From Chondrosia reniformis (taxonomy: Eukaryota; Porifera; Demospongiae; Chondrillida; Chondrillidae), in contig OX359191.1 of NCBI GenBank assembly GCA_947172415.1, forward strand, positions 3,100,001 through 3,164,000: a stretch of DNA of 64,000 nt. Reading direction: 5' to 3'. The translations under genes were made by a program, and so were the position numbers. The notes beneath the pieces were generated by a model that saw only the letters and a list, made by a program, of their open reading frames with translations, did no database searches and had not been told where the DNA came from. Below, piece after piece: positions 3,925 to 29,900 of this stretch; the stretch's first letter is position 1, and each line of letters starts with the position of its first letter.

Positions 3925-6057
3925 CAACTAATACGGACAACTACTTCATTCAACTAGTTCAAAAAACTAGTACCTACAACAAGTTCATCCAACTAGTTCA
4001 AAGAAATAGTACATACTACTAGTTCATACAACTAGTAAATACAACTAGTACAAACAACAAATACATGCAAATAGTACATACAACAAGTACATGCATTTAA
4101 TAAATACAAATAGTACATACAACTACTTCATACAACTGGAACATACAACTAGTTCTTAAAAATAGTACATACTTTTAGTTCATACAACTAGAAAATACAA
4201 CTAGTACACACAACTAATTCACACAACTATTACACACCACTAGGACATATAACTAGAATATACAACTCAAACAAACGACTCGTTTATACAACTAATACAT
4301 ACAACTAGTACATCACTTGTACATATAACAAGTACCTACAACTAGTACAAACAGCTGGTAGATAAAACTAGAAAATACAACTAGTACATACAACTAGTTC
4401 ATACTACTAGTACATACAACTACTACATAAAGCTAGTTCATAAAACTAGTACATACAACTGGTACATACAACTAGTACATACAACTAGTACATGTAACTA
4501 GAACATACAAGTAGTAAATATAACTGGGACATACACATATAACTAGTACATAGCAATTGTATATACAACTAATGCACACAACTAGAACATACAACTAATA
4601 CATAGAACTAGTTCATACAACTAGTACATACAACTAGTACATAACTAGGACATATAACTTGTACACAAAACTAGTACACAGAAATAGTACATAAAACTAG
4701 TACATAGAAAGTGTACATACAACTAGTTCGTACAACCAGTAAATACAACTTGTACATAGAACTGGAACATACAACTGGAATATACAACTACAATATACAA
4801 ATAGTTCATCCAACTAGTACTTACAAGTAGTACATATAACTAGTTCATAAAAATAGTATATAGAACTAGTACTTAACTATTATGTATAACTTGTCCCTAA
4901 TATTAGCACATACAACTAGTACATACCACTCATACAAACAACTAGTACATAGAACAAGTCCAAACAACTAGTACATACAGCTAGTACATACCACTAATAC
5001 ATGCAACTAGTACATACAATTAGTACACACAACTAGTTCATACATCTAGTTACTAGTAAATACAACTAGTACATACAACTAGTTCATACATCTAGTTACC
5101 AGTAAATACAACTAGTACATACAACTAGTAACTACAATTAGTAACTACAATTAGTAAATATAACTAGTACCAAGAACAATTACACGTAACTAGTCACATA
5201 CAAAGAGTACATATAACTACATATCACTACTGTATACAACTAGTACATACAACTAGTTAATACAGATAATTACTAGTACATAAAACTAGTTAATACAGAT
5301 AATTACTAGTACATTCAACTAGTTAATACAGATAATTACTAGTACATACAACTAGTACATATTACTAGTACATACAACTAGACTACATACAGCTAGTACA
5401 TACAACAAGAAACTAGTATATACAACTAGTACATACAACTAGTACATACAACTAGTACATTCAACTAGTATATATAACCAGTACATACATATATAACTAG
5501 TACTTATAACTAGTACATACAACTAGACTACATACAACGAGAAACTAGTAATTACAACTAGTACATGCAATTAGTACCTATACATACAACTAGTTACTTG
5601 TACATACAACCAGTACATACAGCTAGCACATACAACTAGTACATGAAATAATATACAACTTCTATCTACCACTAGTACATATAATTTTTAAATACAGATT
5701 TCTACTAGTGCATACAACTAGTACATAAAACTTGTACGTACAACTAGTTACTAGTACCTACAACAAGTACACACAGCTAGTACATACAACTAGTAACTAC
5801 AACTACCAAATATATCTAGTATATACAACAATTACACACAATTTGTACGTACATCTAGTACATATAACTAGTACTTACAGCTAGTATATGCAACTACTAT
5901 ACAGCACATAAAACTAATACTTACAACTAGTCCATACAACTAGTACCTAAAACTAGTACATAGAACTAGTACATAGAACCAGTACCTACAACTAGTACAT
6001 TGAACTAGTACATACAACAAATACTACACACAATTAGTACATACAACTAGTAACTAC
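3925..6057 (+). repeat. 13-bp satellite block 2
   Basis: Forward-orientation array of the same 13-bp unit. It includes a 33-bp triplication at about 5254-5352 (see separate entry) and 20-bp CTAGTTA-containing monomers. The last monomer before the next element is the variant CTAGTAACTAC. Confidence 0.95.
5254..5352 (+). repeat. 33-bp unit repeated three times
   Basis: TAGTTAATACAGATAATTAC followed by a CTAGTACAT-type monomer recurs at 5254, 5287 and 5320, exactly 33 bp apart. It is a local secondary amplification inside the satellite. Confidence 0.75.
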
Positions 6058-6219
6058 TTAAAAAAATTAGCCAGAAGCCTCGACTTTGCCTCCTTCCGGC
6101 AGCAGCAGACAGGTGCACTTCGGGCCAAAGTTGACCGTCATAATAGGAGGGAGCACCTCCATACACAAATCCACCACTGCTTTCCAGAGGTCGACAGGCA
6201 AGGACTGGGACAGGACTAC

Positions 6220-7209
6220 TTATCGTCCAGGCCCCAATCCCTCAACAGATAGATGTCGCCTCAATATCCTTACAGCCGTGCAGAGAACAGTTCTCTGCAT
6301 CGCTCTCATCACTTCTACTGCACCTTTTGACAGCTTTGGAATTCCCCTTAGGTCTTCTAGGAGCGTGTCCACTGTCCCCAAAGCACCAATTATCATCGGA
6401 ACTACCTTAATTCGGTAGCCCCTAAATTGTTTCCTCATATCAGCCGCCAGCTTCTGGTACTTATGGAACTTCTCTTGCCATCTTCCATTAATATTACTGT
6501 CAGTAGGAACTGACATCTCAATAATGAAGATGGACTTACATAGCCGATCCTAAACCACTAAGTCTGGCCTTCTTTCTGTCATTTCATCATCTGTAGGGAT
6601 ACTAGGATCCCACAAGATTTTGAGAGACCTATTGTCATAGACTGGTTTTGCTTCTAGTTTGTACCAGGGTTCTTCCTGCTTGAATCCATATTCTTTCAAC
6701 AGTCTCCACAACATTATCAGTATTGCCCGGTCATGCCTCTCTTTGTAGAGAGAAAATCCCTTGGGCTCACACATGTTTAGTATGTGTTTGACCGTTTCCA
6801 TAGCCTTGCCACATTCTCTGCACATTAGGAGCCTAGAATTCTTCAGAATCCTATTTTGGTACCACCTAGTGTGCAGCACATCATCTTGGGCTGCGAGAAT
6901 CAGAGCCTCAGTTTGAGGTCTGAGTCTCCCCTCAGAAAGCCACACATAAGACTCCCTATTTGTGACTTGTCTGTGGTATGAGCCCTGGTGAGACTTTTCG
7001 GCTAGGTTACTTTTTAACCTTTCAGTCTGAGCCTCCCGGAGCTCACGTGCCACTCTCCTCCATTCTCTTACATTATTTTGTGAGGGATCTGTCTTCAGCC
7101 ACATTTCCGGTTCTAGTTCTATTCCGTGGCTTCTCAGTATCAATCTGGCTTCTTTCAAGACAGTCCTCCTCTGCTTTGAGCACTCCAGCCACTTTTGGTG
7201 TTTAACCAC
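6220..7209 (-). pseudogene. CCHC finger and restriction-like endonuclease, copy A
   Basis: C-terminal part of the R4-like protein, continued after the frameshift at 7237. It shows the finger C-x2-C-x8-H-x4-C (CRECGKAMETVKHILNMC), then KILWDPSIPTDD and RRPDLVV, the PD of the PD-(D/E)XK nuclease. The frame is cut by TAG at 6550-6552, where copy B has GAG (Glu), and resumes with MSVPTDSNINGRWQEK to the end at 6220. The nuclease nicks the target site to prime reverse transcription. Copy B gives the unbroken reading of this region. Confidence 0.85.
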
Positions 7210-7214
7210 AACAG

Positions 7215-8741
7215 CTATGAGTGGATCATTGGCAGTAGGAGGTATCTTGCCAGATTCACAACAGCCCTGTCGTGATCCAAAGGAAAACTACAGAGCCCTC
7301 TACCACCTTGAGAGCGAGGCAAGTTCACTCTTTCAATGGCAGAGTTATAGTGATGACACTGGTACTTTCTCATGATCTTTCTCACCATTCCGTCCAGTTT
7401 TGGAAGCTCACTTTGAGTCCACTTCAAAACTGGGTAAGAGTATCTCAATAGAGAGGCACACAACATGTTAGAGGCTTCTGCAGCATTCTTACCATTGAGG
7501 TGAGAGCCCCACACTTTGTGGAGTCTCCTCCTCAATTCATTGATCAAGCAAGCTTTGACCTTGCTGTCATCTACCTCAAACAGTTGTTCTAGCCCTAGGT
7601 ACTTATAGGTAGTACCTTTTTCAAGGCTCCTTATGGATTCTTCACTGCATTCAGGGTTGTCTGGGCCAGCCAGAACTTTCTCTTTTTGCATGTGAGCTGT
7701 TCCACACTTTCTCACTCCAAACCTCATGCCAATGGCATTTGAGGTTTTCTCCACACATTCCATGGCTTCCCTGAGTTTATCAGGCCCTCCTGCATATATC
7801 TTAAGGTCATCCATGTACAGCAAGTGTGACATGGTGTTCCTTTCCCCATTATGCCAGAGGGTATATCCCTTGGTTCTGTTAAGAACTTGGGATATGGGAG
7901 CTATGGCCAGACAAAAGAGGAGTGGCGATAAGGAGTCTCCTCGGAAGAGTCCCCTGTTATATTTAACAGCGGTGCTCCTAACCACCTTCCCCGCAGTCTT
8001 CAACTCAAGCACAGTAGCCCAGTGTTTGGAGAAGAGCTCTATAGACCTCCGGATCCAACCTGGGCACTCAATGGTTTTTAGTACCTTCATCACCCACTTG
8101 TGAGGGACTCTGTCATATGCCTTCTCATAATCGATCCATGCAACACTTAGTGGCTTGCCCATAATTTTGGCATCTAGACCGATTGATTGATCCAGCAGTA
8201 GACAGTCCACACAGCCCCGCCTCCCTTTTCTCATGGCCCTTTGGGCCATAGCCAAAAGATCATTAGTGTAGGTGTAAGTGAGTAGTTCTGATGCAATGGA
8301 TGCTGTGACAGCCTTGTACATTGTGTTGAGACACGCAATAGGTCGGTAGTTGGCCGCACTTTTCGGGTCACTCTTTTTGGGGATGAGTAGAGTGCAACCC
8401 CTTGTAAGCCAGTCTGGGGCTGACAGATCTCCGCTCACCACCCTCCGTAGTACATCTGCCAAGGCAGACTGTGCAGAGGGGAGTGCTTTCCACCAAAAAG
8501 TGTGCCCAGGGGCTGACCAGCTTTTTGCCTTTTTCAAGGCTTTCCTCAGTTTGGTCTCATCAATGCTATCGAGACCTTCAGAGGAGGTTCTACCCACCCT
8601 CTTTTTGGTTTCCTTTAGCCATTCTTTCACCCCTGGGTCGTCTTTGTTGACCTTACCAACAGTACCTACAATCTTTGTCCAAAAGTCTCTTACTACCTCA
8701 ATTGAAGGAGCTTCATTGGAGGTTGGAACATTACCATTCAT
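7215..8741 (-). pseudogene. Reverse transcriptase domain of R4-like element
   Basis: 508-codon open frame, the longest in the window. RT blocks appear in order: NYRPIACLNTMYK (residues 131-143); motif A AWIDYEKAYDRVP with catalytic Asp 204; motif B FRGDSLSPLLFCLAIAPI (266-283), where the usual Q before GDS is R; and motif C LLYMDDLKIYA with YMDD at 309-312. The thumb and connector follow. It synthesises cDNA at nicked target DNA. The frame ends early at 7215 because one base is missing at 7237/7238 relative to copy B, whose sequence runs on into the endonuclease. The three RT aspartates are present. Confidence 0.85.
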
Positions 8742-9280
8742 CCGGAACTTCCTTTGGGTATTCCAAAGGTGGTGTGTTCAGCCGATCTTCGCTCTTGTAG
8801 AGTCCAGACCCTGAGTTTCCCCAGTGTCTGTGCTCGAGCTCTGATCAGCACATTCAGGTTTAATGAATGGAACTTCCTCCTAAACTTTCTTCGGAGTACT
8901 TTCTGGCGTTTGGTCATAGGATTATTATTCTGTTGACGCACTATTTCCACATCCAACCAGGCAAGCAGTCTTCTAAACCTAAGGCCCTTGACCTTCCTGT
9001 CACTTTTATGACCTTCCTGTCTCTTAATTCCCTTCTGATTATCTGATTTCCTTCCCTGGTTGCATGGCTGCGATTCGTAGGTTATTTTTCCCCTCACAGC
9101 CATAGCAACAGAGTAGACCAGGCAGTTCAGGTGCCAGGCCGACCTAGGGCCTTCCTGCCACTCTTTCTCCACCCAATCATTGGCCTCCTGAAGCAGTGCC
9201 GTATCAACATGGTTGAACCGCACCGCCCCACAGGGTTTTCTATCAGAGAAATCTCCAGGTTTCTTTCGGAGGACAGGCAT
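8738..9280 (-). pseudogene. Pre-RT linker region of R4-like element
   Basis: 180-codon open frame rich in basic residues, overlapping the frame upstream (9243-9280) and sharing ATGA with the RT frame downstream. It contains AWHLNCLVYSVAMAV and KVLRRKFRRKFHSLN, resembling the conserved L-N-x-L-(I/V)-Y-x-x-A block found before the RT in this group. The ATGA overlap with the next frame looks like translational coupling, but the downstream frame can be traced upstream of its ATG (reads TQRKFR) to a stop. An old frameshift is therefore the better explanation. Confidence 0.6.
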
Positions 9281-9964
9281 CTTTTGCTTTGCCTAAAAGT
9301 TGCATCAGTTGATCATTGTCACTTGTCCTGGGACTAGGATTATCATTTGTAGGAGTTTCAATAGGGGCTGCCGGCAGCTCACCATTTTGTTCAGTCACAG
9401 CCTGAAGTTGGTGAAGCTCCCCCTTCCCCTGGGCTCCCACTCCTTCCTCCACAGTCTCAGTTAGGTTGGCTAAACCACGAGAGTCAGGTTCCACAAGGTT
9501 TAGTCTCGAGAGACCTTGACCTCTTCGGATTCTACTAATTCTCGTAGTTAGCGCTACCTTTGTGGTTTTATGGTCTGGCATTGCAGCATTCCAAGGCTGG
9601 TACAACCGCTCGGCATACCCCTTTTCATGGGCTTACTTTCTCGGTAGAGCTCCATGAGGATATTATCCCTCTGAAGGTTCCAGATCACCCCTTGGATCCT
9701 TCTCCTTCTAGAGGCACCTTGCGGTGCATCATTAACCAAATCTAAATCTCGGCTACCCGTTACTTGCAGTACTCCGTCTCCTACCAAGTTCCTTTTGGCT
9801 TGGAAGGCAAGGGTTCGACCGGTCTGAGGCAAATGTGGGTATTTGCTCAGCCATTCCTGCTCTAAACACTTCTGATAGCCACCTCTTTTGGGTTCAGATC
9901 GCTCATAGCAATCAATTAGTGCCCTAACCATTTCCTCGGTCCATAGGGCTGGTTGGCCCATCAT
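9243..9964 (-). pseudogene. N-terminal Myb/SANT-like region of R4-like element
   Basis: Two overlapping frames (9964-9554 and 9605-9243) that read as one protein after a frameshift near 9610. The first starts at Met 9964 with a helix-rich W-x-x-E-x-V-x-x-L-x-x-C-Y pattern, then KRGGYQK and W-LSKYPHLP. That resembles the Myb/SANT-type DNA-binding N-terminus of R4/Dong-type elements, which contacts target DNA. The second frame continues with YQPWNAAMPDHKTT and a low-complexity linker. The Myb assignment comes from pattern and family knowledge, without an alignment. Confidence 0.65.
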
Positions 9965-10158
9965 GGGGACCGAAGAAAGGCTATTACATTCAGGTACATC
10001 TACCTGCGAGGCACCAGTGGAATCACCTATTCTGGTTGACCCAGGGTTTTCTTCACCGCTGGTGCACCTAGGCCACGGCCTGTCTTGAAAATTTTCATTA
10101 TCATGACATAACGTAACCCAGTGAAGCTGCCAGACGGGGGGTTAGCCCATACTGGCAG
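9965..10158 (-). other. 5' UTR of R4-like element downstream of ribozyme
   Basis: Roughly 190 bp between the ribozyme-like fold and the first Met of the Myb-like frame (9964). No clear coding or secondary structure was recognised. Confidence 0.5.
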
Positions 10159-10277
10159 GGAGGCTGATTTAGCCACAGGATGCCACATGAAGGGCTAAGC
10201 ACCCTGCTCCGTCGGGTTGAACTGGACAATACCCATCCTCTTGTCAGCTCGGAACCACAGCCTCCAATTCCCACGAC
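10159..10277 (-). ncRNA. Probable HDV-like self-cleaving ribozyme at element 5' end
   Basis: On the minus strand the first 119 nt of the R4-like element can fold as a nested double pseudoknot. P2 is GGAGGCTG (10265-10258) with its perfect complement CAGCCTCC (10166-10159). P4 is CAGGGTGC (10206-10199) with GCATCCTG (10183-10176), 8 bp with one G-U. Between P4 and P2 lies GGCTAAAT (10174-10167), which matches the catalytic J4/2 of this class, with the candidate catalytic C at 10172. A candidate P1 is GTCGTGG (10277-10271) with CCCGAC (10216-10211), which needs a bulge. An alternative stem is GAATTGG (10270-10264) with CCAGTTC (10225-10219). P3/L3 is not resolved. Such ribozymes are known at the 5' ends of R2- and R4-type elements, where they release the element RNA from a host co-transcript. 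Confidence 0.65.
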
Positions 10278-11627
10278 AACTATTACATACAACTGCTACA
10301 TATAACTAGTCGATATAACTAATGCATGCAACTAGTACATAGAACTAGTACACAGAACTAGTACCTACAACTAGTACATCGAACTAGTACATAGAACTAG
10401 TACATACAACCAGTACATACAAGTAGTACATACAACTAGTACATACAGCTAGTAACTACAACTAGTTAATGTAACTAGTACATTAAACAATTAGACGCAA
10501 CAAGAACATACAACTACTACATATGACTACATACAACTTGTACATACAACTAGTAAATACAGTTTGTTACTAGTACATACAACTGGTACATACAACTGGT
10601 ACATACAACTATTACATAAAACTAGTACATATAATTAGTCCATATACCTAGTACATACAACATACAACTAGTACATACAACTAGTTCATACAACTAGTAC
10701 CTACAATTGGTATATAGAAATAATACTTAGAAAAAGTACATATAACCAGTACAGACAACTAGTACATACAACTGGTACATACAACTGGTACATACAACTA
10801 TTACATAAAACTAGTACGTATAATTAGTCCATATACCTAGTACATACAACATACAACTAGTACATACAACTAGTTCATACAACTAGTACCTACAATTGGT
10901 ATATAGAAATAATACTTAGAAAAAGTACATATAACCAGTACAGACAACTAGTACATACAACTAGTACATACAACTAATACATAAAACTAGTGCATACAAC
11001 TAGTACTTTAACTACGAAATAGAACTGGTACATATTACCAGTACATGTAACTTGCACATACAACTACTACACACAACTAGTACATACAACTAGTACATAC
11101 TACTAGTAACTACAACTAGTAAATATAACTAGTACATACAACTATTACACACAAATACTACATACAACTAGTACATACAACTAGTAAATATAACATACAA
11201 AAATTACACTCAATTAGAACATACAACTGGTATATACAATTAGAATCGAGTACATAAAACTAGAACATACAACTAGTACATAATTAACCAGTACATACAC
11301 ATATAACTAGTACTTATAACTAGTACATAAAACTAGACTACATACAACTAGAAACTATTACATACAACTAGTACATAAAACTCGTAACTGGTACATAAAA
11401 CTAGTGCACTCAACTAGTACATAAATTGGTACATATAACTAGTGCATACAACTAGTACATAAAACTAATTACTAGTACATACAACTAGTACATAAAACTA
11501 GTACATGCAACTATTAACTATTAGTAGTACTTATAACTAGTCAATATAACTAGTTACTAGTACATACATCTAGTTCATACAACTAGTATATAAAACTAGT
11601 ACATACAACTAGTACATACTACCAGGA
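10278..11627 (+). repeat. 13-bp satellite block 3
   Basis: Forward array. It contains a direct segmental duplication with a 189-bp offset: the stretch beginning ATTACATAAAA at 10611 recurs at 10800, with the same private variants (GAAATAATACTTAG, a 7-bp extra CATACAA). It was therefore amplified by unequal exchange as a block. Array ends where the CACTG terminus of the DNA transposon begins. Confidence 0.95.
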
Positions 11628-11637
11628 CACTGAAAAA
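11628..11637 (+). repeat. Left terminal inverted repeat CACTGAAAAA
   Basis: Perfect 10-bp inverted match to 18229-18238. The preceding A is also shared. Confidence 0.65.
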
Positions 11638-12162
11638 CTACTTTGTTATTTTAACCTTTTTAAGGGTTATTTTTTATGACACTGTACTGACCCTATAAAA
11701 AGTTACTTTGACCACATAAAAATAAGGTCATTTTTACTGAATTAAATTAGTATTATGTTTACATTAAACGTAAGTTGAAAAACGTTTTATTATGAACATT
11801 GTAACCATGTTTATTAGTATATATAGTCATAGCTGAATGTATATGGTAATTATATTTATATTTTGTTGAATTATTACTGTTTTATGTTAAATCCATTCAC
11901 CATTGCATGTAAATTCAAGTCATACATTTAAGTATATATATATATATTCAATGCATGTTAGAGACAACAATTTTATGAGTACATACTTTGCATGCTGTTA
12001 GTCTAGCATGCATGGTTGAGTCTATAATATGCAGATGCACTATCATTTAAAGCATCCATACACATACATGGCAATACAGCATTCTGTATGGAATAAACAT
12101 AAGAAAAAAAGAAAAAGAAGCAAAAGCGAAAAAAGTTAAAACAGTTACTTATAGCCAGAAAC
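11638..12162. other. Non-coding left arm of DNA transposon
   Basis: AT-rich 525 bp between the left terminus and the stop of the SAM-domain gene. It contains a short hairpin (AACC, T-rich loop, GGGTT near 11653-11667) and the motif TTACTTTGAC at 11703-11712, which also occurs at 17026 and 18110. No gene seen. Confidence 0.5.
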
Positions 12163-13960
12163 CTAAGCTGCTGTAAAACATTGAATGTTGCTGCTAACTG
12201 TCAGATAAGTAGCACTCTTTTTTATGGTTACAGCTGGAAGACCAAAACCTAACTCCTGAATAAACAAAGCCACTTCACTAATGGTCTTCTGATACTCTAG
12301 ATTAAAGATGTAGTGGGCTGAGCACCATAACATCAGAGCTTTACTGAATCTCAAAATACCTGAAACCAATACCTTCTTTTCAATTATCAAATAATAGGTG
12401 TAAATGTTATTGATGTCTTCAACACCGATAATTATCAGAGATGGCGTAGCAGCTTTATCTGCAATAGCATCCAAACCTTCATTTATCTGCAAAATAATGC
12501 AGAATACATGTATCAAAGTGCACATAAACTTGTACACATAATAATGTTAAAAATGCACCTGATGAGCTTCAAATATAAGACGCAAATTTTCATCCTTGTA
12601 CCCTTTGACTAAGCACAATGCCAGGAGACAGAGGGCTTCTTTCTTCTTCCTCTTCATCACCTGCATGAAAAAAATTAAGGTTTAATGTATACAACTACAT
12701 ATTGATTGAGTAGTGGAGTTGCTTTACTTGAAAATTTCCTTTCAAGAACTTCAGTACTATATTTAGCAGCTTTGCCCTTAAACATTTTAGCAAACTGTTT
12801 GGCAACCTTAGTGCAGAAGTCTTTGTTTGGGTGATTCATATGTGCATACATTGTTGAAACAAGGTCACGAACACTAGCATTACGTACATCAGGGGTAAGG
12901 TGCTTTCGTTGCTCGGCCTCATCTTTCCCTTTAATGAAATACATAACTGCTGGTCTCCAAGTGCTTGGGAGTACAAATGTTTGATCACCAGCTGGGCATA
13001 TACCTCTGCTGGAGTCTTTCAAGGATGTTGAAGCACTATCAGAGATATCAAGGCTTACTACAGAAGATTTTGAAGATGAATTATAAACACTTTCTGGTAT
13101 CACACAAGGTTGTTGTGGTTTGGCATTTAGTGCAGAGCTGGAGGAAAGCTCCTGCATTAAGAAAATAGAAATCATGTGTAAACATACATGACAATTAACT
13201 CAAAAATGGTACACATACATAAGCAAAAATCAAACATATATTAATTTTAGTAAAATCTTTGTATATTTAGGAAGACACTTATACTGTGTGTAGATAGGAA
13301 CCTCTTGAAAAATTGTGCCCCTCGTTATATCTCAAATTGACATTTCATTGTGCAGTTACTTTTTAGTAACACATTTATAAGGCATTCAAGTTTTACTAAA
13401 CAAATCACCACGTTATTTGCTTTTCTAACTAAATATAACATTATGGGTGTTAGGTTTCCAAAACATTTGTAAAGCTCTCGAATAAGTTTTAGGTGTAAGG
13501 AGAGCAATTTGTGAGTCTTTAGTAGAAGAAAATCGCTATATATATGAAGACAAAAGGTACCCAGCAAGGCATGAGTTACTTAAAGAATATGGGCTAGGAA
13601 ACTTACTAATGGAATTAGACGGTAAATCTTCTTCACAAGGCCTAATTTGTTTGGTATTAGTTGGTTCAGTTCATCCACAGTCAATTCAAGGAAGGCAGCA
13701 ACATCAATTTCATTATCTGCATTTGTGTGATACATATATATGAATAATTATAAGCTATTTAATATAGCTATAGCTGGGAGCTTAGAACAAGCTTTTGTGA
13801 TAATAACCAGCATAAACTGAAACTTCATACCTTCAAAAATGTCACAAATACTTTCGTGTATTCCCTTATCTCTTAGAAGCAGCGACACAGAAATACAATA
13901 TTTTTCTTCAAAACTCATCTTGATGCATAGACAGAAAATGGCCATGAGATTACTAGACAT
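12163..13960 (-). CDS. SAM-domain companion gene of the DNA transposon (five exons)
   Basis: Spliced gene read on the minus strand. Exon 1 is 13960-13831 (donor GTATGA), exon 2 13716-13607 (acceptor TGCAG, donor GTAAGT), exon 3 13151-12728 (acceptor ATGCAG, donor GTAAAG), exon 4 12660-12559 (donor GTGCAT), exon 5 12486-12163. Exons 1 and 2 join in frame to give a SAM domain (SLLLRDKGIHESICDIFE then DNEIDVAAFLELTVDELNQL), a protein interaction module. Exon 3 carries a Ser-rich stretch then WRPAVMYFIKGKDE; exon 5 resembles C-termini of SAMD3-like proteins that accompany such transposons in fish and invertebrates, from memory. The exon 3/4 junction is out of phase by one base in my model, so either the boundary is wrong or the gene is broken. 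Starts could be Met 13960 or the Met 42 bases downstream (13918). Confidence 0.62.
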
Positions 13961-14037
13961 TGTACTAGAAATTGCGGACTATGCACTTATACATTATATT
14001 GGTACCGAATATTAACGGAAGTTGTCACATTTAACAA
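13961..14037. promoter_or_regulatory. Shared intergenic region between divergent transposon genes
   Basis: Only 77 bp separate the first Met codons of the minus-strand SAM gene and the plus-strand transposase, so both promoters or 5' UTRs must overlap here. It is AT-rich (includes TATATT), but no specific element can be proved. Confidence 0.4.
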
Positions 14038-16701
14038 ATGATGGAAACTGTCTCTTGTCAGTTGTGCTCATTATTATTGCCAAATCTTCAGATTTACATA
14101 AGTCATCTAAGGCAGGTGCAGATCCTAATTTTTCACTGTTTTGTGTATTTGAAAGTTGCTTTAATTAATCATTTCATCACATTTGGTGCTTTTAACAGTT
14201 ATGTTTATCAAACGCACAGAAGTGTATTGGGTCTGGACATAGCCAATAAGGATAATATGGAGGAAACAATCCTGCTGCTACTATAAATTCAGCTTTACCT
14301 ATTTTACCAGATTTTAGCTTCAGTGATGAAAGAGAACTTCCAGATGACATTTACTATGATGTGCAACATATTTTGGGAATAACTGCTAACCAGCAGGAGC
14401 AGGAAGCCACAAAGTTTTTGTTAAAACTGAAGGAGGTCTGCAATGTGTCACAACGTCCTGTTAGTGAGGTTATCGAAGGCTGCAATAGACTATTTGGAAA
14501 CTCGTTCTCAATTGTCAAGGCTTCTGTGAAGGATATACTAGGAAAGGCTGGAATATGCATGTCTACAATTGAAGGTTTGGATGCATTTTTTTCACTTCCA
14601 CGGCCATGAAACAACCTACATGCAAGGGAAATACTTCAGAAATCACTTTCAAGTTCTGGTTAGAATTGGCACACACTACACTAGCAATTAATATTGCTAT
14701 ATACATATTATACACTAATTCCAAATATGCTAAACCTGTATATCTTAGGTTCTGATTTCATAACGTCTACTGAAATAATGGGATTTTAAAATTAACCTGA
14801 TTCTTACCACTTGATTCATTTAGGAGCCTATTGAAATCATTTTTGGCAATGTTCAAGTAAACTGTTTTCTGGAACTAAAAGCCAAAAGGTACAGTCTGCA
14901 CGAACATTTTGCTACTTCCCTCTACTTGAGTCACTTTCACAGTTGTTGAAAAATATAGAAATATTGCATGAATTACAGTTGGCAAGAACTACTGATTGCA
15001 ATCGCTTAAACAACTTCTGTGGTGGCAATACGTGGAAAGAACATTCCTTGTTTGGCACTGTAAATGATGCTTTGCAGATTTTAGACTATTTTGATGAATT
15101 GGAAATCACAAATCCAATTGGCTCATATGTTAACACTCACAAATTAGGGTGCTTATTTTTTACTCTTGGTAACATACGTCCTATGTATAGATCCAGTCTG
15201 AAAGCAATATATCTTGTGGCTGTGGCTCGATCACAAAATATTGACAGATATGGTATGGATTGTTTCCTTAAACCTTTTGTAGAAGATATGAAGCGCCTTT
15301 ACATTGATGGCCTCACTGTTACTGGAGGATCTAATGAACACACATACTTTGGTGCTCTGATTGCCTTTTTAGCAGATACAGCTGCTGCACACAAAGTAGG
15401 TGGTTTTAAAGGATGTGTGTCCTTTGCTCGTAGAATCTGTCGTTCGTGTATGGCCCCAAAGGATGACTCCCAAACTCATTTTGACGAAATTCTTTTTGAA
15501 TTGCGAACTTCGCAAAATCATGAAGCCCTGTGTCAATCCTTAACAGGAAGTCAGAGCCGTGAAAATTCCGTTAAATATGGCATAAACCGTACGTCTATTT
15601 TAGAAGAGGTTCCTGGATATTCTCTTGCCACAGGTATGCCACATGATATAATGCATGATCTTTTTGAAGGGGTTGTTCATTATGAACTAAAGCTATTTCT
15701 TTTTTATTGTGTGTTCAAAAAATATTTCTCCATCGATACACTTAACACAAGAATACGTGGATATGATTTTGGATCTGAAGATTAACCATCATTTATTGAT
15801 CCTGCATCTCTTGAGATGTCTGACAAAAATTTCGTCAGACAGCTGCTAAAACAATTGCTCTAGTGAGAAATTTGCCAATCTTGATTGGTGATAAAATTCC
15901 TGCAGATGATGAAAATTGGTATTCATTCCTATTGCTAATTAAAATATGCCAGATTGCTCTCAGTCCTGAACACTCAAGAGACACAATTTCATACCTACGT
16001 ATTTTGGTAGAGGAGAAATTGCAGTTATTGCAGAAACTGGACCCAGGGAGTACTATAAAACCCAAAATGCACTACATGGTACATTATCCTTCACAAATTG
16101 AATGACATGGACCACTTGTCCATTCCTGGACAATGCGTCATGAGGCAAAGCTCAGCTTCATTAAAAGAGCATCACGTAGAGGAAATTTCAAAATATTGTG
16201 AAAACAGTTGTGAAGCACCACCAGCTTTGGTTGTCTTATCATCTAAACTGTGGAGAACATCTACTCTACCCATTACCTGAATTCAGTCCAAAGGTGAATA
16301 ACTCCAGATTATTGGATAAATGTGAACGTATAAAGTCTCAAGTCATAATTGCAGCAGACTTAACAAATACAGTAGATTGTATAATCCACCATCATAAATG
16401 GCTAAAAATCTAATCTACAGTTTATAAAGTAGGCAATTTCATACTGCTTGATCGTGATGAATTTACTCCTAAATTTGGAATGATAATAGATATTATTCAT
16501 GTTCCAGAACAACAGCGGATATTACTTGATGTTGAGGAATTTGTAGGTGACTATTTTATATCACATTTTAATGCTTTTGTTGTTGTATCTATGTCTAATG
16601 CAGCAGTGGTTGATGTTCATTTGTTACAAGACTATCACAGTTATACTGCAAGAAAAGGTTTCAATGTTTCCGATAACAGTTTGTACATCGTGCTACCTTA
16701 G
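14038..16701 (+). pseudogene. EnSpm/CACTA-like transposase, broken
   Basis: Catalyses cut-and-paste transposition when intact. The N-terminus (14038 on) has a C2H2-type start (SCQLC then ISHLRQV), then a shift near 14120 and a second finger-like block. 14361-14640 reads LLKLKEVCNVSQRPVSEV to IEGLDAFF. A likely intron is 14659-14823 (donor GTTAGA, acceptor TTTAG), followed by EPIEIIFGN. After a shift near 14890 comes FCYFPLLESLSQLL, then a 280-codon frame (14943-15785) with TNPIGSYVNTHKLGCLFFTL, GFKGCVSFARRICRSCM and GMPHDIMHDLFEGVVHYELK. Beyond a shift the product continues with RNLPILIGDKIPADDENW, MHYMVHYP and, in another frame, SWTMRHEAKLSFIKRAS, ending at 16701. Several shifts show it is inactive. 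The family pattern is recognised from memory; the catalytic triad was not mapped. Confidence 0.75.
14659..14823 (+). other. Probable intron in the transposase gene
   Basis: Interrupts conserved sequence between NHFQVL and EPIEIIFG. Begins GTTAGA and ends TCATTTAG after a pyrimidine-containing tract. Joining preserves frame. Confidence 0.6.
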
Positions 16702-17170: not shown

Positions 17171-17520
17171 TTATAGAGGATTTTTCCCGCCATTTCCACT
17201 TCCTGTCATGTGACCCTCAGCAGGATGAGAAAAACAGGAACTATGAATATTAAATCGTCTCCAGGCTTGATGTAACACAATGCCTTGATCTAAATTCATT
17301 CTCACCTGACTCTTCTGGATCCTGATGGCTTCTTTGACCCTTCTCCTTTGCCAGTGGGTTTCCCTGTCTGTAATCTTGGCCTTGTCCCAAGCAATTGAGT
17401 GGCCAGTCTTGAGGGAGTGAACAGCTATACCGTTGTTCACATCCCCCATCCTGACTGCTCGCTTGTGTTCAGCCAATGTCACTTTCAGGGTCCTTCCAGT
17501 TTTACCAAAGTAGACTGCAG
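17171..17520 (-). pseudogene. GIY-YIG endonuclease fragment, left arm
   Basis: Minus-strand C-terminal end of a Penelope-like protein. It starts around VYFGKTGRTLKV (in place of the YIG motif seen in the right arm), then LAEHKRAVRMGDVNNG, AVHSLKTGHSIAWDKAKI and a basic tail to the stop at 17171. It is near-identical to the right-arm copy apart from a few substitutions (for example Gln for Arg in MNLDQG). It lacks the GVVYLIPC half of the nuclease, so it cannot be active. Confidence 0.8.
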
Positions 17521-17562
17521 AACCGTTTTATCCAACCCAAAACAGCCACAACCACCTATGGA

Positions 17563-17947
17563 TATCAAGGGTGTAGTTTACCTAATTCCTTGCTCTGAGT
17601 GTTCTGCAGTCTACATTGGAAGGACTCTGAAAGTGAGATTGGCTGAACACAAGCGAGCAGTCAGGATGGGGGATGTGAACAACGGTATAGCTGTTCACTC
17701 CCTCAAGACTGGCCACTCAATTGCTTGGGACAAGGCCAAGATTACAGACAGGGAAACCCACTGGCAAAGGAGAAGGGTCAAAGAAGCCATCAGGATCCAG
17801 AAGAGTCAGGTGAGAATGAATTTAGATCGAGGCATTGTGTTACATCAAGCCTGGAGACGATTTAATATTCATACTTCCTGTTTTTCTCATCCTGCTGAGG
17901 GTCACATGACAGGAAGTGGAAATGGCGGGAAAATCCTCTATAAATAG
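17563..17947 (+). pseudogene. GIY-YIG endonuclease domain, right arm
   Basis: Plus-strand C-terminal part of a Penelope-like protein. It has the full motif GVVYLIPC-x2-C-x3-YIGRT with the two tyrosines of GIY-YIG, then EHKRAVR, an HS-x5-H block and a tail to the stop near 17947. In intact elements this nuclease nicks target DNA for priming by an upstream RT, which is absent here. The open frame can be extended upstream to 17399, but that part is the left arm read backwards and is not coding. Confidence 0.85.
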
Positions 17948-17976
17948 AGGCAATTCTTCCACTCAACCATCAGTCA

Positions 17977-18121: not shown

Positions 18122-18228
18122 GTTAGGTTGTTATAACCAATACCTAGTTGTTAAATGTTTGGTAGGTCATTTTAATCAATAATATTGGCTGTTATTTTAA
18201 CCATTTGATATTGTTTTAACATACAACT

Positions 18229-18238
18229 TTTTTCAGTG
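18229..18238 (-). repeat. Right terminal inverted repeat
   Basis: TTTTTCAGTG, reverse complement of the left end. Satellite resumes right after it. Confidence 0.65.
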
Positions 18239-21200: not shown

Positions 21201-23975
21201 TAAAACTAGTGATTACCCTTAGTACCTACAACTAGTACATACGACTAGTACATACAAACAGTTCATACAACCAGTACATACAACTAGGCCATACAACTAG
21301 TTCATAACTAGTATATGCAACTAGTACATATAACTAGTACATACAACCAGTACATATTACTAGTACATACAACTATAATATATACAACTATTACGTAAAA
21401 CTAGTACAATCAATTAGTACATACCACTAGTACCTATAACTAGTGATTACAACTAGTACATGCAACTAGTACATATTAATAGGCCATACTACCTGTACAT
21501 TCAACCAGTACATACAACCAGTATATATGTCTAGAACATACAACAAGTGCATACAAATAGTACATATATCTGGTTCACTATAACTATTGTTTACAACTAT
21601 TACATACAACTTGTACATTCAACTAGTAGAAATAACTACAACATACACATATAACTTGTACATATAAATAGTACATAAATCTAGTACATACAACTAGTAT
21701 ATGTAACTAGTACATTAAACTAGCACATACAACTAATACAAACAACTACCACATACAACTAATACGTATAATTAGTCTATTCACTAGTCCATACAACAAG
21801 TACATATGTCTAGAACATACCACCAGTACATACAAAGAGTACTTGTAACTGGTTTAGTATAACTAGGGTTAAAACAAATAAATACAACTAGTACGTACAC
21901 CAAGTACATAAAACTAGTGCTTACAACTAGTACATATAACTATAACAAACAACTTCTACATTCAACTAGTAGAGATAACTTGAACATACACATATAACTT
22001 GTACATATAAATAGTACATACAACTAGTATATACAAGTAGTACATAAAACTAGCACTTACAACTAATACATACAACTACTACATACAACTTGTATATACA
22101 ACTAGTACATACACCCAGTGCATTCAACTAGTATATACAACTAGAAGATACAACTTGTACATACAACTAGTACATACATCTAGTACATACAACTTGCACA
22201 TAACACTAGTACATAAAACTAGAACATACACATATAACTAGTACAAATAAATAGTACAAACAACAACTAGGGCATAAAACCTTTACATACAACTAGTACA
22301 TACAACTAGTGCATAGAACTAGTTCATACAACTAGTACATACATCTATTACATACAACTGGTACATACACTTAGTACATACACTAGAATATACACTTATA
22401 ACTAGTAGATATATATAGTACATTCAACTAATACATAACCAGTACATACAACTTGTACTTACAAGTAGAACATATAACTAGAACATACACATATAACTAG
22501 TACATACTACTAGTTTATGCAACTAGAACATAAAACTAGGACATACAACCAGTGCATATAACTAGAACATACAACCATTACATATTACTAGTACATACAT
22601 CTGGAATATACAACTGGTACATATTACTAGTACATACTACCAGTCCATTCAACCAATACATACAACCAGTTTATACGACTAGAACATACAAGAAGTGCAT
22701 GCAAATAGTAGATATTTATGGTTCACAATAAGTAGTGCTTACAGATAATACCTTCAACTAGCACATATAACTATTACATACAATTTGTACATTCAACTAA
22801 TAGAAATAACTAGAATATACACATATAACTAGAACATATAAATAGTACATACAACTAGTGCATACAACTAGTGTATGCAACTAGTACATAAAACTAGCAC
22901 ATACAACTATGACATACAACTAATACATACAACTAGTAAATACCCCAATTACATTCAACTAGTACATACAACTAGTACCTACAACTAGTACCTACAACTA
23001 ATACATATAACTAGTACCTATAACTAGTGATTTCAACTAGTACCTACAACTAGTACCTACAACTAGTACATACAAATAGTACATAAACAGTACATACAAC
23101 TAGTACATATAACTAGTCCATACAACTAGTTCATAACTAGTATATGCAACTAGTACATATAACTAGTACTTAAAACCAGTGCATATTACTAGTACATACA
23201 ACTAGAATATATAACTAGTACGTACAACTAGTACATTCGATTAGTACATACCACTAATACCTATAACTAGTGATTACAACTAGTACATGCAACTAGTACA
23301 TATTAATAGGAGATACTACCAGTACATTCAACCAGTACATACAACTAGTACAAACAACTAGTACATACAACTAGTATAGATAACTAGAACATACACATAT
23401 AACTTATACCTATAAATAGTACATACAACTAGTACAAGCAAGTAGTACGTAAAACTAGCACTTACAAGTAATCCATACAACTACTACATACAACTTGTAT
23501 ATACAACTAGTACATACACCCAGTACATTCAACTAGTACGTCCAACTAGAACATACAAGTTGTACATAGAACTAGTACATACATGTAGTACATACAACTT
23601 GCACCTAAAACTAGTACATATAATTAGAACTTTCACATATAGTTTGTTCATATAAATAGTACATATAACTAGTATTTATAAATTGTACATATAACTAGTA
23701 GATATACCTAGTACATATAAATAGTACATACAACCAGTACATACAACCAGTACCTACAACTAGTATAAACATACAACTAGTACATACAACTAGTACATTC
23801 AACTATTGCTTAACACTAGTACCTACAACTAGTACCTACAACTAGTACTTATAACTAGTACCTATAACTAGTGATTAAAACTAGTACCTACAACTAGTAC
23901 ATACAACTAGTACATACAAACAGTACATACAACCAGTACATAAAACTAGGCCATACAACTAGTATATAACTAGTA
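18239..23975 (+). repeat. 13-bp satellite block 4
   Basis: Long forward array of the CTAGTACATACAA unit. It includes 19-bp CTAGTACATACACATATAA-type monomers, local poly-variants, and a short stretch at about 19318-19347 where monomers read in the opposite orientation (TTTATGTACTAATTG). Confidence 0.95.
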
Positions 23976-24218
23976 AGAGAATAATAAACATTTTCTACAA
24001 CAAAAGTAGAAGATGTAGGGATGGCACAAAAGGCATAGAAACAAGAAAGGGATGTTACACAGTGAAGAATTATTTATGCATGAATCATACAACACCCTTG
24101 CTTGTAGGATTCGTGCATAAATAATTCTTCACTGTGTAACATCCCTTTCTTGTTTCTATGCTTTTTGTGTCATCCCTACATCTTCTACTATTGTTGTAGA
24201 AAATTTTTATTATTCTCT
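23976..24218. repeat. 243-bp foldback (111-bp arms), MITE-like
   Basis: Arms 23976-24086 and 24108-24218 are reverse complements over 111 bp with only a handful of mismatches, around a 21-bp loop. Outer ends read AGAGAATAATAAA. The transcript would form a long hairpin. No coding capacity. It could be a MITE or the terminal part of a larger foldback element extending to 24712. Confidence 0.85.
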
Positions 24219-24690
24219 AATTTCTGTACTTTTTATGGAGCATAAGCTAGGAATTATATAATGGACCATTTTGGTTTCGCAATCTTCGACTGAATATGAC
24301 ATCATTAAAATGGCGAATTTATTGAATTTTATAGACTCTTGGTCCACGAAAACCGTCATGCCCAATAATAACATTATCGCTCTCGCTTCTACAAAAAAAT
24401 ACAGTGTGGAAAATTTGGAGTATTTTCGCTTCAGAAGTAGCCCGAAAACTAACTTCCTTGTTTAGTTACAGCGGGCGAAGAAGATGAAGAAGAAGAAAAC
24501 GAAAATCGGATATTTCAAAGTTCGCCCATTTGCTAGCGGAACACGGTCGATTGCCTTTAAGGCCAGTTCATAGCATGGCTGGTGTATTTTTAACTATACA
24601 TAGCTTTTTTCGGCGATTTTCAGCCTATTTCGGATTTTCGCTCCTATACCAATGTAAAGGGAAAACGAACAACCCGTACCATCCCTACAT
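24219..24690. other. Unclassified unique sequence next to foldback
   Basis: Non-satellite DNA with a short plus-strand open frame (ATG at 24313 in AAAATGGCG context, to 24465) beginning MANLLNFIDSWSTK and followed by a Lys-rich read-through region. No homology recognised. CATCCCTACAT occurs at 24171-24181 and again at 24680-24690, hinting that both belong to one element. Confidence 0.45.
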
Positions 24691-24712
24691 AGAGAGTACT
24701 ACTGTACTCTCT
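24691..24712. repeat. Terminal 9-bp perfect hairpin
   Basis: AGAGAGTAC, 4-nt spacer TACT, GTACTCTCT. It lies at the boundary where satellite resumes and may be the far end of the foldback element, whose other end also starts AGAGA. Confidence 0.6.
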
Positions 24713-24902
24713 GATATGCAACTAGTACAAATAACTAGTACATACAACCAGTACATATTACTAGTACATACAACTAGAATGTACAATTAGTACATTCAAC
24801 TAGTACATTCAATTTGTACATACCACTAGTACCTAAAACTAGTACATACAACTAGTATTTGCAACTAGTACATTAAACTAGCAAATAGGTTTGTATGTAC
24901 TA
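24713..24902 (+). repeat. 13-bp satellite block 5a
   Basis: Short forward stretch of the satellite between the foldback unit and a LINE scrap. Confidence 0.9.
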
Positions 24903-25036
24903 GCAGATATGGTGAGAATGTATCGTTAACAGCAAGTGCTTGGACTCTGTTGGAAAGATAGGATTTAATCCACTGGCACAAGTGATCGCTGAAATTGCTA
25001 TCGAAATTTAGGGAATTTTATGATGATTTGCACTAT
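24903..25036 (-). pseudogene. 134-bp LINE reverse transcriptase scrap
   Basis: Minus-strand translation contains HLCQWIKSYLSNRVQALAVN, the same peptide as in the LINE at 47116-47415; nucleotide identity is high across roughly 90 bp (TATCGTTAACAGCAAGTGCT and onward). It is cut at both sides inside the RT fingers/palm region. Neither a 5' nor a 3' LINE end is present. Confidence 0.85.
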
Positions 25037-25642
25037 AGTAACTACAACTAGTAAATATAACTATTACATACAAAAATTACACACAGTTGTATATTCTAGT
25101 TCATACAACTAGAATATACAACGTGTATCTAGTACATAAAACTAGTACATAAAACTAGTACACACAACTAATACATTCAACTAGGACATACAGATAGTTA
25201 CAAGTACATACAACTAGTACATACATGTAGTACATACAACTAGTAACTACAACGAGTACATATATATAGTTACTAGTACATACAACTAGTACATATAACC
25301 AGTATATATATCTAGAACATACAACTAGTAACTAGTACTTCCAATAGTTCACACAAGTAGTACATGCAACTAGTAACTACAAGTAGTAAATATAACTAGT
25401 ACATACAACAATTACACACAACTAGTACATAAAATTAGTACATATAACTACATGTAACTTCTAAATACAACTACCACATTCAACTAGGACATACAGATAG
25501 TTAATAGTACATTCGAATAGTACATACAACTAGTACATACAACTAGAACAAACTACAAGTACATACAACTACTACATACATCTAGTTACTAAACCATACA
25601 ATTAGTACTTACAAATAAAACATATATATAACTAGTAACTAC
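25037..25642 (+). repeat. 13-bp satellite block 5b
   Basis: Forward array rich in the variant monomers CTAGTAACTACAA and CAATTACACACAA. It ends in CTAGTAACTAC at 25632-25642, directly at the 3' junction of R4-like copy B. Confidence 0.93.
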
Positions 25643-26956
25643 TTACTTGAAAAACGAAAGCCTTAACGGAGAACCTTGTTACTTCTTGCCTTAGTGTACT
25701 AAGGCTAGGAGTATCTGGCTTGGACAACCCTCAGTCAGTTACGTTTTCCTTTCTTTGGGTTTTTAGCCAGAAGCCTCGGCTTTTCCTCCTTCCGACAGCA
25801 GCAGACGGGTGCACATCGGGCCAAAGTTGACCGTCATAATAGGAGGGAGTACCTCCATACACCAATCCACCACTGCTTTCCAGAGGTTGACAGGCAAGGA
25901 CTGGGACAGGACTACTTATCGTCCAGGCCCCAATCCCTCAACAGATAGATGTCGCCTCAATATCCTCACAGCTGAACAGAGAACAGTTCTCTGCATGGCT
26001 CTCATCACTTCTACTGCACTTTTTGACAGCTTTGGAATTCCCCTTAGGTCTTCCAGGAGCGTGTCCACTGTCCCCAAAGCACCAATTATCATCGGGACTA
26101 CCTTAATTCGGTAGCCCCTAAATTGTTTCCTCATATCAGCTGCCAGCTTCTGGTACTTTTGGAACTTCTCTTGCCATCTTCCATTAATATTGCTGTGAGT
26201 AGGAACTGACATCTCAATAATGAAGATGGACTTACTTAGCCGATCCTCAACCACTAAGTCTGGCCTTCTTTCTGTCATTTCATCATCTGTAGGGATACTA
26301 GGATCCCACAAGATTTTGACAGCCCTATTCTCATAGACTGGTTTTGCTTCTAGTTTGTACCAGGCCTCTTCCTGCTTGAATCCATATTCTTTCAACAGTC
26401 TCCACAACACTATCAGTATTGCCCGGTCATGCCTCTCTTTGTAGAGAGAAAATCCCTTGGGCTCACACATGTTTAGTATGTGTTTGACCGTTTCCATAGC
26501 CTTGCCACATTCTCTGCACATTAAAAGGCTAGAATTCTTCAGAATCCTATTTTGGTACCACCTAGTGTGCAGCACATCATCTTGGGCTGCGAGAATCAGA
26601 GCCTCAGTTTGAGGTCTGAGTCTCCCCTCAGAAAGCCACACATAAGACTCCCTATTTGTGACTTGTCTGTGGTATGAGCCCTGGTGAGACTTTTCGGCTA
26701 GGTTACTTTTTAACCTTTCAGTCTGAGCCTCCCGGAGCTCACGTGCCACTCTCCTCCATTCTCTTACACTATTTTGTGAGGGATCTGTCTTCAGCCACAT
26801 TTCCGGTTCTAGTTCTATTCCGTGGCTTCTCAGTATCAATCTGGCTTCTTTCAAGACAGTCCTCCTCTGCTTTGAGCACTCCAGCCACTTTTGGTGTTTA
26901 ACCACAACAGCTATGAGTGGATCATTGGCAGTATGGAGGTATCTTGCCAGATTCAC
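25643..26956 (-). mobile_element. R4-like non-LTR retrotransposon copy B, 5' truncated
   Basis: Minus-strand 3' portion of the same family as 6058-10277, highly similar throughout. The 3' junction follows CTAGTAACTAC as in copy A. The 5' truncation point (near 26956) runs into AACTAGTAAATATAACTAG. The AAC at the junction is shared by element and satellite, so the end is ambiguous by 3 bp. The flanks rejoin into the normal satellite pair CTAGTAACTACAA and CTAGTAAATATAA without gain or loss. Its 3' UTR retains about 110 bp (25650-25765) that copy A lacks. Confidence 0.9.
25916..26954 (-). CDS. Intact C-terminal finger and restriction-like endonuclease, copy B
   Basis: Uninterrupted 346-codon frame from the truncation point to the natural stop, so it has no real start. 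It covers the end of the RT thumb (NLARYLHTANDPL), a basic connector, the finger C147-x2-C150-x8-H159-x4-C164, KILWDPSIPTDDE, RRPDLVVEDR (residues 230-239) and FIIEMSVP with Glu 248, a plausible PD-(D/E)XK acidic pair. The C-terminus is IIGALGTVDTLLEDL then SVEGLGPGR. This is the best preserved endonuclease in the window. It is not expressed as a gene by itself as far as can be seen. Confidence 0.82.
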
Positions 26957-29900
26957 AACTAGTAAATATAACTAGTATATACAACAATTACACAAAACTA
27001 CTACATGCAAGAAGTACATATGACTACATACAACTAGTGCATACAACAAGTAACTACAACTGGTAAATACAGACAGTTACTAATACATTCAAGTAGTACA
27101 TAGAACTAGTACATACATGTAGTACATACAACTAGTAACTACAACGAGTACAAACAACTAGTACAAACAACCAGTATATATATCTAGTACATACAACTAG
27201 TTACTAGTATATACAACTAGTTCACACAACTAGTACATACAACTAGTACATACAACTAGTAACTACAAGTAGTACATATAATTAGTACACACAACAATTA
27301 CACACAACTAGTACATAAAACTAGTACATATAACTACATGCAACTATTACATACCACTTATACATTCAACTAGGACATACAGATAGTGACTAGTACATAC
27401 AACTAGTACATACAACTAGAACATACAACTAGTACATACAACTGCTACATACATCTAGTTACTAATCCATATAATTAGTACTTACAACTTAAACATATAA
27501 CTAGTAACTACAACTAGTAAATAAAACTAGTATATACAACAATTATACATAACTAGTACATGCAAGTACTACATATAATTACAAACACTTAGTACTTACC
27601 ACTAGTACATACAACTAAAACAACAACTAGTAACTACAACTAATAAATATTACTAGTATATACAACAATTACACAAAACTACTACATGCAAGTAGTACAT
27701 ATAACTACATACAACTAGTACATACAAAAAGTATCTACAACTGGTACATACACACAGTTACTAATACATTCAAGTAGTACATACAACTAGTAACTACAAC
27801 TAGGAAATAAAGCGAGTACATTCAACAATTCCACACAACTAGTACATACAAGTAGTACATATAATTAGTACTTAGCACTAGTACCTAAAACTAGAACATA
27901 TAACTAGTTACTAGTACATAAAATGTCTACATACAACTAGTACCTACAACAAGTACATACAACTAGTCCCTAGTACGTACAGCTAGTACATACAACTAGT
28001 GCATAAAACTAACTACAACTGGTAAATATAACTGGTACATACAAAAATTACAAAAACTACTACATACAACGAGTACATATAACTACATACAACTAGTACA
28101 TACGACTAGTTCATACAAGTAGGACATAAGACTAGTATATAAGACCAGTACATACAACTACTTACTAGTTCATACAACAACTACATACAACTAGTAATTA
28201 CAACTAGTACATACAACTAGTACATAGATTTAGTACATATAACCAGTATATATATCTAATACATACAACTACTACATATAACTAGTACATATAACCAGTA
28301 TATATATCTAATATATACAACTAGTACATATAACTAGTTCATATAACCAGTACCTACACATATAACTAGTACATATAAATAGTACATAAAACTAAAACAT
28401 ACTACTGGTACATAAAACTAAAACATCCGACCAGTTCATAAAATTAAGACATACAATTAGCACCTACAACTAGTACATACAATTAGTACACACAACTGGA
28501 ACATACAACTAGCACATCAAACAAGTTCATAAAATTAGTACATAGAATTAGTGCCTACAACTAGTATATACAATTAGTACATATAACTGGAACATACAAC
28601 TAGCACATAACTAGTACATACAATTAGTACATACAATTTGAACATGCAACTACTACTTACAATTGAGTACATACAACTTGAGCATATAACTAGTAACGAC
28701 TACTTAAGACTAGTACATACAACTAGTACATTAAACTAGTACAACTAGTACATACAGCCAGTATATACAACTAGTACTACAACCAGGACATATAACTAGT
28801 TCATACAACTAGACTAGAAACTAGTACATACAACTAGTTCATACAACTAGTTAATACAGATTGTTATTAGTACATACAACTAGTATATAAAACTAGTAAA
28901 TACTACTAGTTACAAGTTCATACAACTAGTATATACAACTAGTAAATACAACTAGTACTTACAACTAGTACTATAACTGGTACATAGAACTAGTACATTT
29001 AACCAGTACATATAACTTAGACATACAACTTTCACTACAATTAGTACATACAACTAGTTACTACTACGTACAAACTAGTAACTGCAACTAGTAAATATAT
29101 CTAGTACTTACAAGAATTACACATACATACAACAAGTACATATAACTACATACAACTATAGTTCATACAAATAGTACATACAGCTATTTACTAGTACATA
29201 AACCTAATACATACAAGTAGTACATACAAGAAGTAAATATAACTAGTGCATACAACAATTACGAACCAACTAGTACATACATGTAGTACATAAAACTACA
29301 CACAACTAGTAAATACAACTAGTACATAAAACTAGTACCTATAACTAGTACATACAGATAGTTACTGGTACATACAACTGGTACATACAACTAGTATAAA
29401 CACCTAGTTACTACTACATACAACTAGTACATACAACTAGTTCATATAAGTAGTACATACAACTAGTAACTACTACATACAACTAGTACATACACTAGTT
29501 AGTAGTACATACAACTAGTACATACCACTAGTACATACACCTTGTAATAATAACTTGTAAATATAACTAGTACATACAACAATTAGGCACAACTAGGACA
29601 TACAACTATTCCCTATAACTATATACAACTAGTACACACAACTAGTACATGCAACTACTACACAGAACTACTACATACAACTAGTACATAGAACTAGTTC
29701 ACACATCTAGTACATGCAACTTGTAAACACAACTACTACATACAACTAGTACATTCAACTGGTTCACACAACTAGTACATTCAACTAGCGCATACAACTA
29801 GTTTATACAACTGGTACATACAACTATTAACTACAATTAGTAAATATAACTTGTACATACATCAATTACGCACAACTGGTACATACAACTAGAACATTCA

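Follow-up and report, generated by a model that had tools for sequence, protein, structure and literature searches.

A retrotransposon of the sponge Chondrosia reniformis inserted in 18S rRNA genes and in a 13-bp satellite that may mimic the ribosomal cut site

The window analysed here, a stretch of 64,000 nucleotides (bases 3,100,001-3,164,000 of chromosome 3, C3), belongs to the 117,379,552-bp, 15-contig genome of Chondrosia reniformis, whose assembly odChoReni1.1 is a 14-chromosome sponge assembly according to the relevant part of its description (PMC12181767). It holds two copies of a non-long terminal repeat (non-LTR) retrotransposon embedded in a 13-bp satellite, ACATACAACTAGT; arrays of this satellite, running in either direction, make up about 42.9 kb of the window. 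From 63,137 genome pattern matches, scaled on the window, the satellite has been estimated at 6.7 Mb, i.e. 5.7% of the genome; its variants include TAAAT-bearing AACTAGTAAATA and ACAT-bearing AACTAGTACATA. Copy A (6058..10277, minus strand) has a full-length 5' end, with the element start GTCGTGGG at 10277, while its 3' terminus is short of the usual sequence by about 120 bp, with TTAAAAAAA standing there instead. It is bordered by plus-strand satellite arrays at 3741..6057 on its 3' side and at 10278..11649 on its 5' side. Copy B (25643..26956, minus strand) is 5'-truncated, has the canonical 3' end (sense ...CAAGTAA) and lies between plus-strand arrays at 24685..25642 (3' side) and 26957..36300 (5' side). 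The two copies are 97% identical across the 1.2 kb that they share.

In copy A, a reverse transcriptase (RT) reading frame of 508 residues (7215..8741, minus strand) matches RVT_1 with E=1.4e-27, and the top-scoring solved chains for this frame are R2 retrotransposon proteins (E=7.8e-16). The C-terminal reading frame, 346 residues long in copy B (25916..26956, minus strand), contains in the expected order a zinc knuckle CX2CX8HX4C (26465..26518, minus strand) and an RPD-X14-E motif of the restriction-like endonuclease (RLE) type (26213..26266, minus strand), both recognised by regular expression. Profile support for this frame is weak (zf-RVT 0.0058, below the cut-off; R2 chain 0.31), and an AlphaFold model of the RLE piece, computed without an alignment, was unusable (predicted local distance difference test score, pLDDT, of 36). 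Genome-wide, 229 3' ends at ≤3 mismatches were counted against 119 exact 5' ends, the two patterns being of unequal stringency; variant forms of the 3' end also occur. On these predicted features, RT, C-terminal zinc knuckle and endonuclease, and 5' truncation with a constant 3' end, the element is classified as an RLE-type non-LTR retrotransposon of the R2/R4/NeSL/HERO/CRE group. For the 5' end (window positions 9800-10400), Rfam gave no match to a hepatitis delta virus (HDV)-like ribozyme at E values of 10 or less, and a simple fold gave no clear sign of one.

A preliminary description of this DNA had proposed that both copies are inserted at one exact position of a satellite variant monomer and that most copies in the genome would sit at CTAGTAACTAC^AA (^, cut point). 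The junction letters it reported are correct: CTAGTAACTAC lies at 6047..6057 and 25632..25642 (plus strand), followed in copy B by an extra TTAC before the element core, and AACTA lies at 10278-10282 and 26957-26961, where it opens the plus-strand 5' flanks AACTATTACATACAACTGC (10278..10296) and AACTAGTAAATATAACTAG (26957..26975), the latter a variant monomer that mimics 18S rRNA sequence and has TAAAT at +7 to +11. The 5' boundary of copy B is ambiguous over about 5 bp, within about 26955-26959, because element and satellite both read ACAAC there. That A and B are separate insertions, as had been claimed, is borne out by their differing flanks. The joined flanks of copy B likewise give CTAGTAACTAC+AACTAGTAAATATAAC, and the uninterrupted CTAGTAACTACAACTAGTAAATA is present 16 times in the window satellite examined. 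Both window copies (6058-26956) recur with matching flanks at C3:4265607-4285334 (L017, L002, L220), where the 3' flank of B and the 5' flank of A are matched about 19-20 kb apart, in opposite orientation and 1.1-1.2 Mb off; they are carried in an inverted segmental duplication on chromosome 3.

For the whole genome, 203 3'-junction rows were read among the matches listed; they come from 120 short stretches as well as from the window and search loci. One position, C1:4311527, was entered twice (L005, L039), and 16 rows without the usual ...CTT anchor were left out, leaving 187 usable rows; copy A and its duplicate L002 stand outside this table, their altered 3' end having been missed by the anchor search. 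Deduplication at 75 bp, with a bimodal distance histogram, reduced the usable junctions to 132 distinct sites, a 45-bp rule having been discarded as it merged independent satellite sites. Satellite sites number 100, of which 95 share the main orientation and 5 have the opposite one; the remaining 32 are elsewhere and include the 3' end of 18S ribosomal DNA (rDNA). The 95 sites are spread over all 14 chromosomes, and the satellite holds about 13 times its genome share of insertion sites. Insertion of an RLE-type retrotransposon in the satellite, mostly in a single strand orientation (95 vs 5), is hereby confirmed, and one register leads: ACATAC^ accounts for 50 of the 95 sites (ACATAC^AACTAGT), AC^ for 16, ACATACAAC^ for 15, ACATACAACTAG^ for 10 and others for 4. 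Once possibly element-derived tails are trimmed, ACATAC^ keeps 46 of the 95 and the remainder fall into nine registers.

The single exact position did not withstand this census, as several registers and many upstream variants (ATAC, TTAC, CTAC, GTAC) are used. CTAGTAACTAC itself stands at the cut in 5 of the 95 main-orientation sites (L017/copy B, L024, L094, L097, L201), with copy A as an extra case, and CTAGTACATAC in 13 by the same regular expression; under another tail-trimming rule, CTAGTAACTAC is credited with 1 site only. Because the satellite background contains 39 occurrences of CTAGTAACTAC and 417 of CTAGTACATAC, this 11-mer is over-represented at cuts, and it is far from exclusive. 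A strictly site-specific element whose home is the single junction CTAGTAACTAC^AA would fit both window copies, this over-representation and the enrichment of the variant monomer downstream. It is nonetheless extremely improbable, since so few sites carry the 11-mer, 32 of the 132 sites are non-satellite, and insertions in 18S exist. The preliminary description had itself named non-satellite targets, or junctions scattered over many satellite positions, as findings that would speak against it, and both occur in part.

Upstream of the cut, TAC ends 86 of the 95 main-orientation satellite junctions, and the base before it is strongly selected (sites/background: TTAC 27/217, CTAC 22/308, ATAC 32/938, GTAC 5/1019). 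Such a pattern could in principle arise without protein recognition, if the RNA 3' end (GUA, GUAAAA) paired with whichever TAC was exposed as a primer by random nicking of a TAC-rich satellite, and the variable T*AC tails seen at junctions, element-derived in appearance, would agree with it as the TAC ends do. However, hardly any sites use GTAC, the most frequent TAC of the satellite sample, the other strand of the sample offers 1415 TACs that are used by 5 of 100 sites, and a strong bias exists downstream of the nick, where the RNA 3' end cannot pair. In view of the scant use of GTAC and of one strand, together with this downstream bias, TAC microhomology acting alone was rejected, and we consider unlikely an insertion pattern set by such pairing in place of protein recognition.

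The 5' junctions of 57 copies were paired by position with 3' ends, 56 of them having a comparable 3' flank. Among these 56, 21 distinct sites have target duplications of 9-17 bp followed by a simple tail, and 7 other rows were set aside as duplicates (L261 shares the downstream side only). A further duplication, ACTGCCATTAC^TACTTCTAACAT, was found at L099. Among 22 nick sites, the prevailing letters are T 15, A 16 and C 16 (-3 to -1), C 19 (+3), T 16 (+7), A 18 (+8), A 19 (+9) and T 17 (+11). The plain satellite monomer has C at +9; counts at this position are A 13, C 2 and T 1 for the 16 satellite nicks, against A 77, C 533 and other 63 in the background (A vs C, p=4e-10). Similarly, of 35 distinct satellite 5' flanks, 18 contain TAAAT within 30 bp, the background level being 12% (p=2e-8). 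The excess of A at +9 and the enrichment of TAAAT show that the next monomer, CTAGTAAATA, matters, in agreement with the weight that the preliminary description had given to the downstream variant monomer AACTAGTAAATA.

Like R8, the element is also inserted in 18S rRNA genes. At L008, it occupies the 3' end of 18S in a locus where 5.8S and 28S follow, and L025 and L095 have the same 18S junction with a piece of internal transcribed spacer 1. The 18S end was recognised by its letters, the sequence of primer ITS1 being complete and that of ITS5 partial. The 18S-linked copies on C10, C4, C8 and C6 (L085) run into N stretches that make the far 18S side unreadable. These N-bounded copies are located at C10:6.96 Mb, C4:7.48 Mb, C8:7.45 Mb and C6:7.73 Mb (L262-L265); possible nucleolar organisers may thus lie on four chromosomes, 5.8S and 28S being shown for C10 alone. 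In L085, the element 5' end is followed by ACGACTTTTAC and then by the 3' end of another element, an arrangement that looks like a tandem pair of elements at the 18S site. Genome searches with the 18S downstream pattern (≤1 mismatch) gave one match, C11:1740815 (L268), which is not 18S-like on reading, and the 18S upstream pattern gave 5 matches, all adjoining the element; one exact 26-base pattern had no match in IMG/VR or GTDB contigs. Among 20 further stretches read, two had a usable 5' junction (L269, L273), the others being N runs, C11:1740815 or stretches with no junction.

Two further observations would link the element to rDNA. At L012 (C3:1609718) and L119 (C14:3417236), 17-19 bp of 18S lie between the element 3' end and an unrelated flank, as if read-through RNA from an rDNA copy (3' transduction) had been inserted elsewhere. 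In addition, the 3' untranslated region of copy B contains an 18S-like stretch (25666..25682, minus strand), in which 16 of 17 aligned columns equal 18S downstream of the insertion point. The last 200 nt of this copy contain GTAACAAGGTTCTCCGT, and the 18S sequence that it matches starts some 9 nt downstream of that insertion point. None of 3000 mononucleotide shuffles was as good (best shuffle 25 vs 27), and among 134 rDNA 60-mers from L008, the score of 27 was reached solely by one that overlaps this stretch. Such a similarity would fit an element that captured target sequence while it resided in 18S.

Over six non-satellite sites, the mean match to 18S is 10.7 of 21 against 6.0 for shuffled sequences (p=5e-5, the floor of the test). 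A matrix built from six non-satellite nick sites alone, and therefore non-circular, was applied to the satellite. In the top 1% of satellite positions, 843 of 878 are on the used strand, and ACATAC^ is the register of 637 of these. For the 16 satellite nicks, the median matrix rank is 0.0096, a value that none of 400 column permutations reached (best 0.011). Of the 92 positions of the 18S piece, the same matrix scores the true junction highest, and it places copy A in the top 0.32% and copy B in the top 0.24%.

Collectively, these data make it likely that the element is an RLE retrotransposon whose 18S-like cleavage preference spills onto an 18S-mimicking satellite variant. The target of its endonuclease and DNA-binding parts would be a degenerate motif that approximates TAC^WWC(Y)T-TAAAT, the 18S form of which would be TTTTAC^TTCCTCTAAATG, antisense and near the 3' end of the gene. 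The common 13-bp satellite variant ...NTAC^AACTAGTAAATA... would bear the same key letters, so that insertions could spread through the satellite of 14 chromosomes, mostly on one strand and in one leading register. The RLE would nick the ...TAC^ strand, the TAC end would then pair with the RNA 3' end ...AAGUA(A)n for target-primed reverse transcription, and a staggered second cut may produce the 9-17-bp duplications. We infer that 18S was the ancestral home and that protein recognition, not later selection, sets the insertion pattern.

Several results weigh against this spillover from 18S. In the assembly, neither an empty 18S site nor an 18S body 5' of the insertion was found. The letters TTCCTCTAAATG, which we take to be conserved 18S sequence downstream of the nick, have primer support from other eukaryotes only. 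In the passages that list them, the primers CTTGGTCATTTAGAGGAAGTAA (fungal) and ITS5 (in use for rotifers as well) agree with these letters, and they are not sponge sequence (PMC5622200, PMC6209156). The nick motif is based on 22 sites only; 28 of the 56 pairs show no acceptable target duplication, in some cases because tandem copies or the periodicity of the satellite interfere, and no clear one is seen for copies A and B themselves. The strand preference of the matrix is largely base composition, 44 of 400 permuted matrices being equally biased. A matrix from 18S alone has the wrong strand bias (top 1%: 696 reverse vs 340 forward), which indicates that the 18S site is matched by the satellite only in part; 18S sequence as the sole predictor was accordingly discarded. 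In leave-one-out tests against shuffles, p<0.02 was obtained for 3 of 6 sites, L010 (0.27), L055 (0.10) and L099 (0.13) being weak, and two of the 16 satellite nicks, L078 and L028, rank at chance, unexplained by the matrix.

The chromosomal distribution invites another explanation. On every one of the 14 chromosomes, the tabulated 3' ends have a median position of 0.36-0.52 of chromosome length, which suggests a pericentromeric satellite block on each. Insertion at random, if copies persisted only in gene-poor pericentromeric DNA and were multiplied by segmental duplication, would produce such medians, and 187 junctions do reduce to 132 sites, with an inverted duplication carrying both window copies. 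Passive accumulation of this kind surely adds to element copy number. It does not predict the strand bias (95 vs 5), the register or the letters at +3 and +7 to +11; alone, it is insufficient for the junction pattern, and as the principal cause we regard it as very unlikely. A bolder extension of the 18S-spillover reading, to which we attach little credence, is that an rDNA parasite finds a decoy or a refuge in the satellite: 18S-mimicking monomers would divert insertions from ribosomal genes, while target duplications of 9-17 bp, about one monomer, and segmental duplication would help the array grow, in a form of co-evolution.

R4 makes a 13-bp target duplication. For R4 and Dong, an HDV-like ribozyme has been reported in the passages dealing with them. 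The Chondrosia element is of the RLE type as these are, and differs from them by its 18S site, its satellite occupancy and the absence of an Rfam match for such a ribozyme. With the R2 clade, it shares an RT that is closest to R2 among solved proteins and an rDNA target; R8 of Hydra, of this clade, is located in 18S rRNA genes, and the same account, in the part concerned, states that no R2 lineage with lost target specificity has yet been identified (PMC5035012). In contrast, the Chondrosia element has 9-17-bp target duplications and many copies outside rDNA. The closest mechanistic precedent is provided by the NeSL-related Utopia and YURE: Utopia has a weakened U2 specificity, with target-like sequences kept at off-target junctions, and YURE copies occur in a U2-derived satellite (PMC4640811). 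However, these elements target U2 small nuclear RNA genes and their satellite is gene-derived, whereas no rDNA origin of the Chondrosia satellite was seen, no special search having been made; recognisable target duplications are rare in that report's elements and present at 21 sites here. BLAG of the German cockroach is, in the portion of its description that bears on this, also R2-like and outside rDNA, and is presented as randomly located, with no mention there of a satellite motif (PMC7650587).

In our searches of the open-licence PubMed Central literature, mostly at the level of search listings, no case of a satellite-targeted RLE element was found except YURE in its U2-derived satellite, nor any description of an rDNA element that has spread through an unrelated satellite mimicking its target. 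The Chondrosia element would offer a sequence-level account of how a ribosomal-gene retrotransposon changes home, through a cut-site match to an abundant satellite that gives it millions of bases of harmless target. With many natural off-target sites, the target recognition of an RLE (-3 to -1, +3, +7 to +11) becomes readable from a genome.

Other mobile elements form debris between the arrays of the window (50711-53284, 17399-17944, 36302-37547, 47119-47415 and 14835-15782). This debris includes an RT with GIY-YIG-like pieces, the latter read by eye and without Pfam match, which is perhaps Penelope-like, as well as an apurinic/apyrimidinic endonuclease (APE)-type endonuclease, a further RT stretch and a tnp2-like stretch, these last two below cut-offs. 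Elsewhere in the genome, same-position insertions with differing 3' tails occur in two further repeats (L010 on C2 and L086 on C7; L018 on C3 and L190 on C14) and are possibly independent. The 5'-terminal 16-mer of the element is repeated in 19-bp steps (x3) at C11:3275344-3275397 and in 22-bp steps (x2) at C9:3428484-3428521. Finally, L065, L199 and L163 (5' partners L215, L216 and L249) have near-identical flanks and 5'-to-3' distances of 1261, 1251 and 441 bp, and probably represent a single insertion that was duplicated and internally shortened to differing extents.

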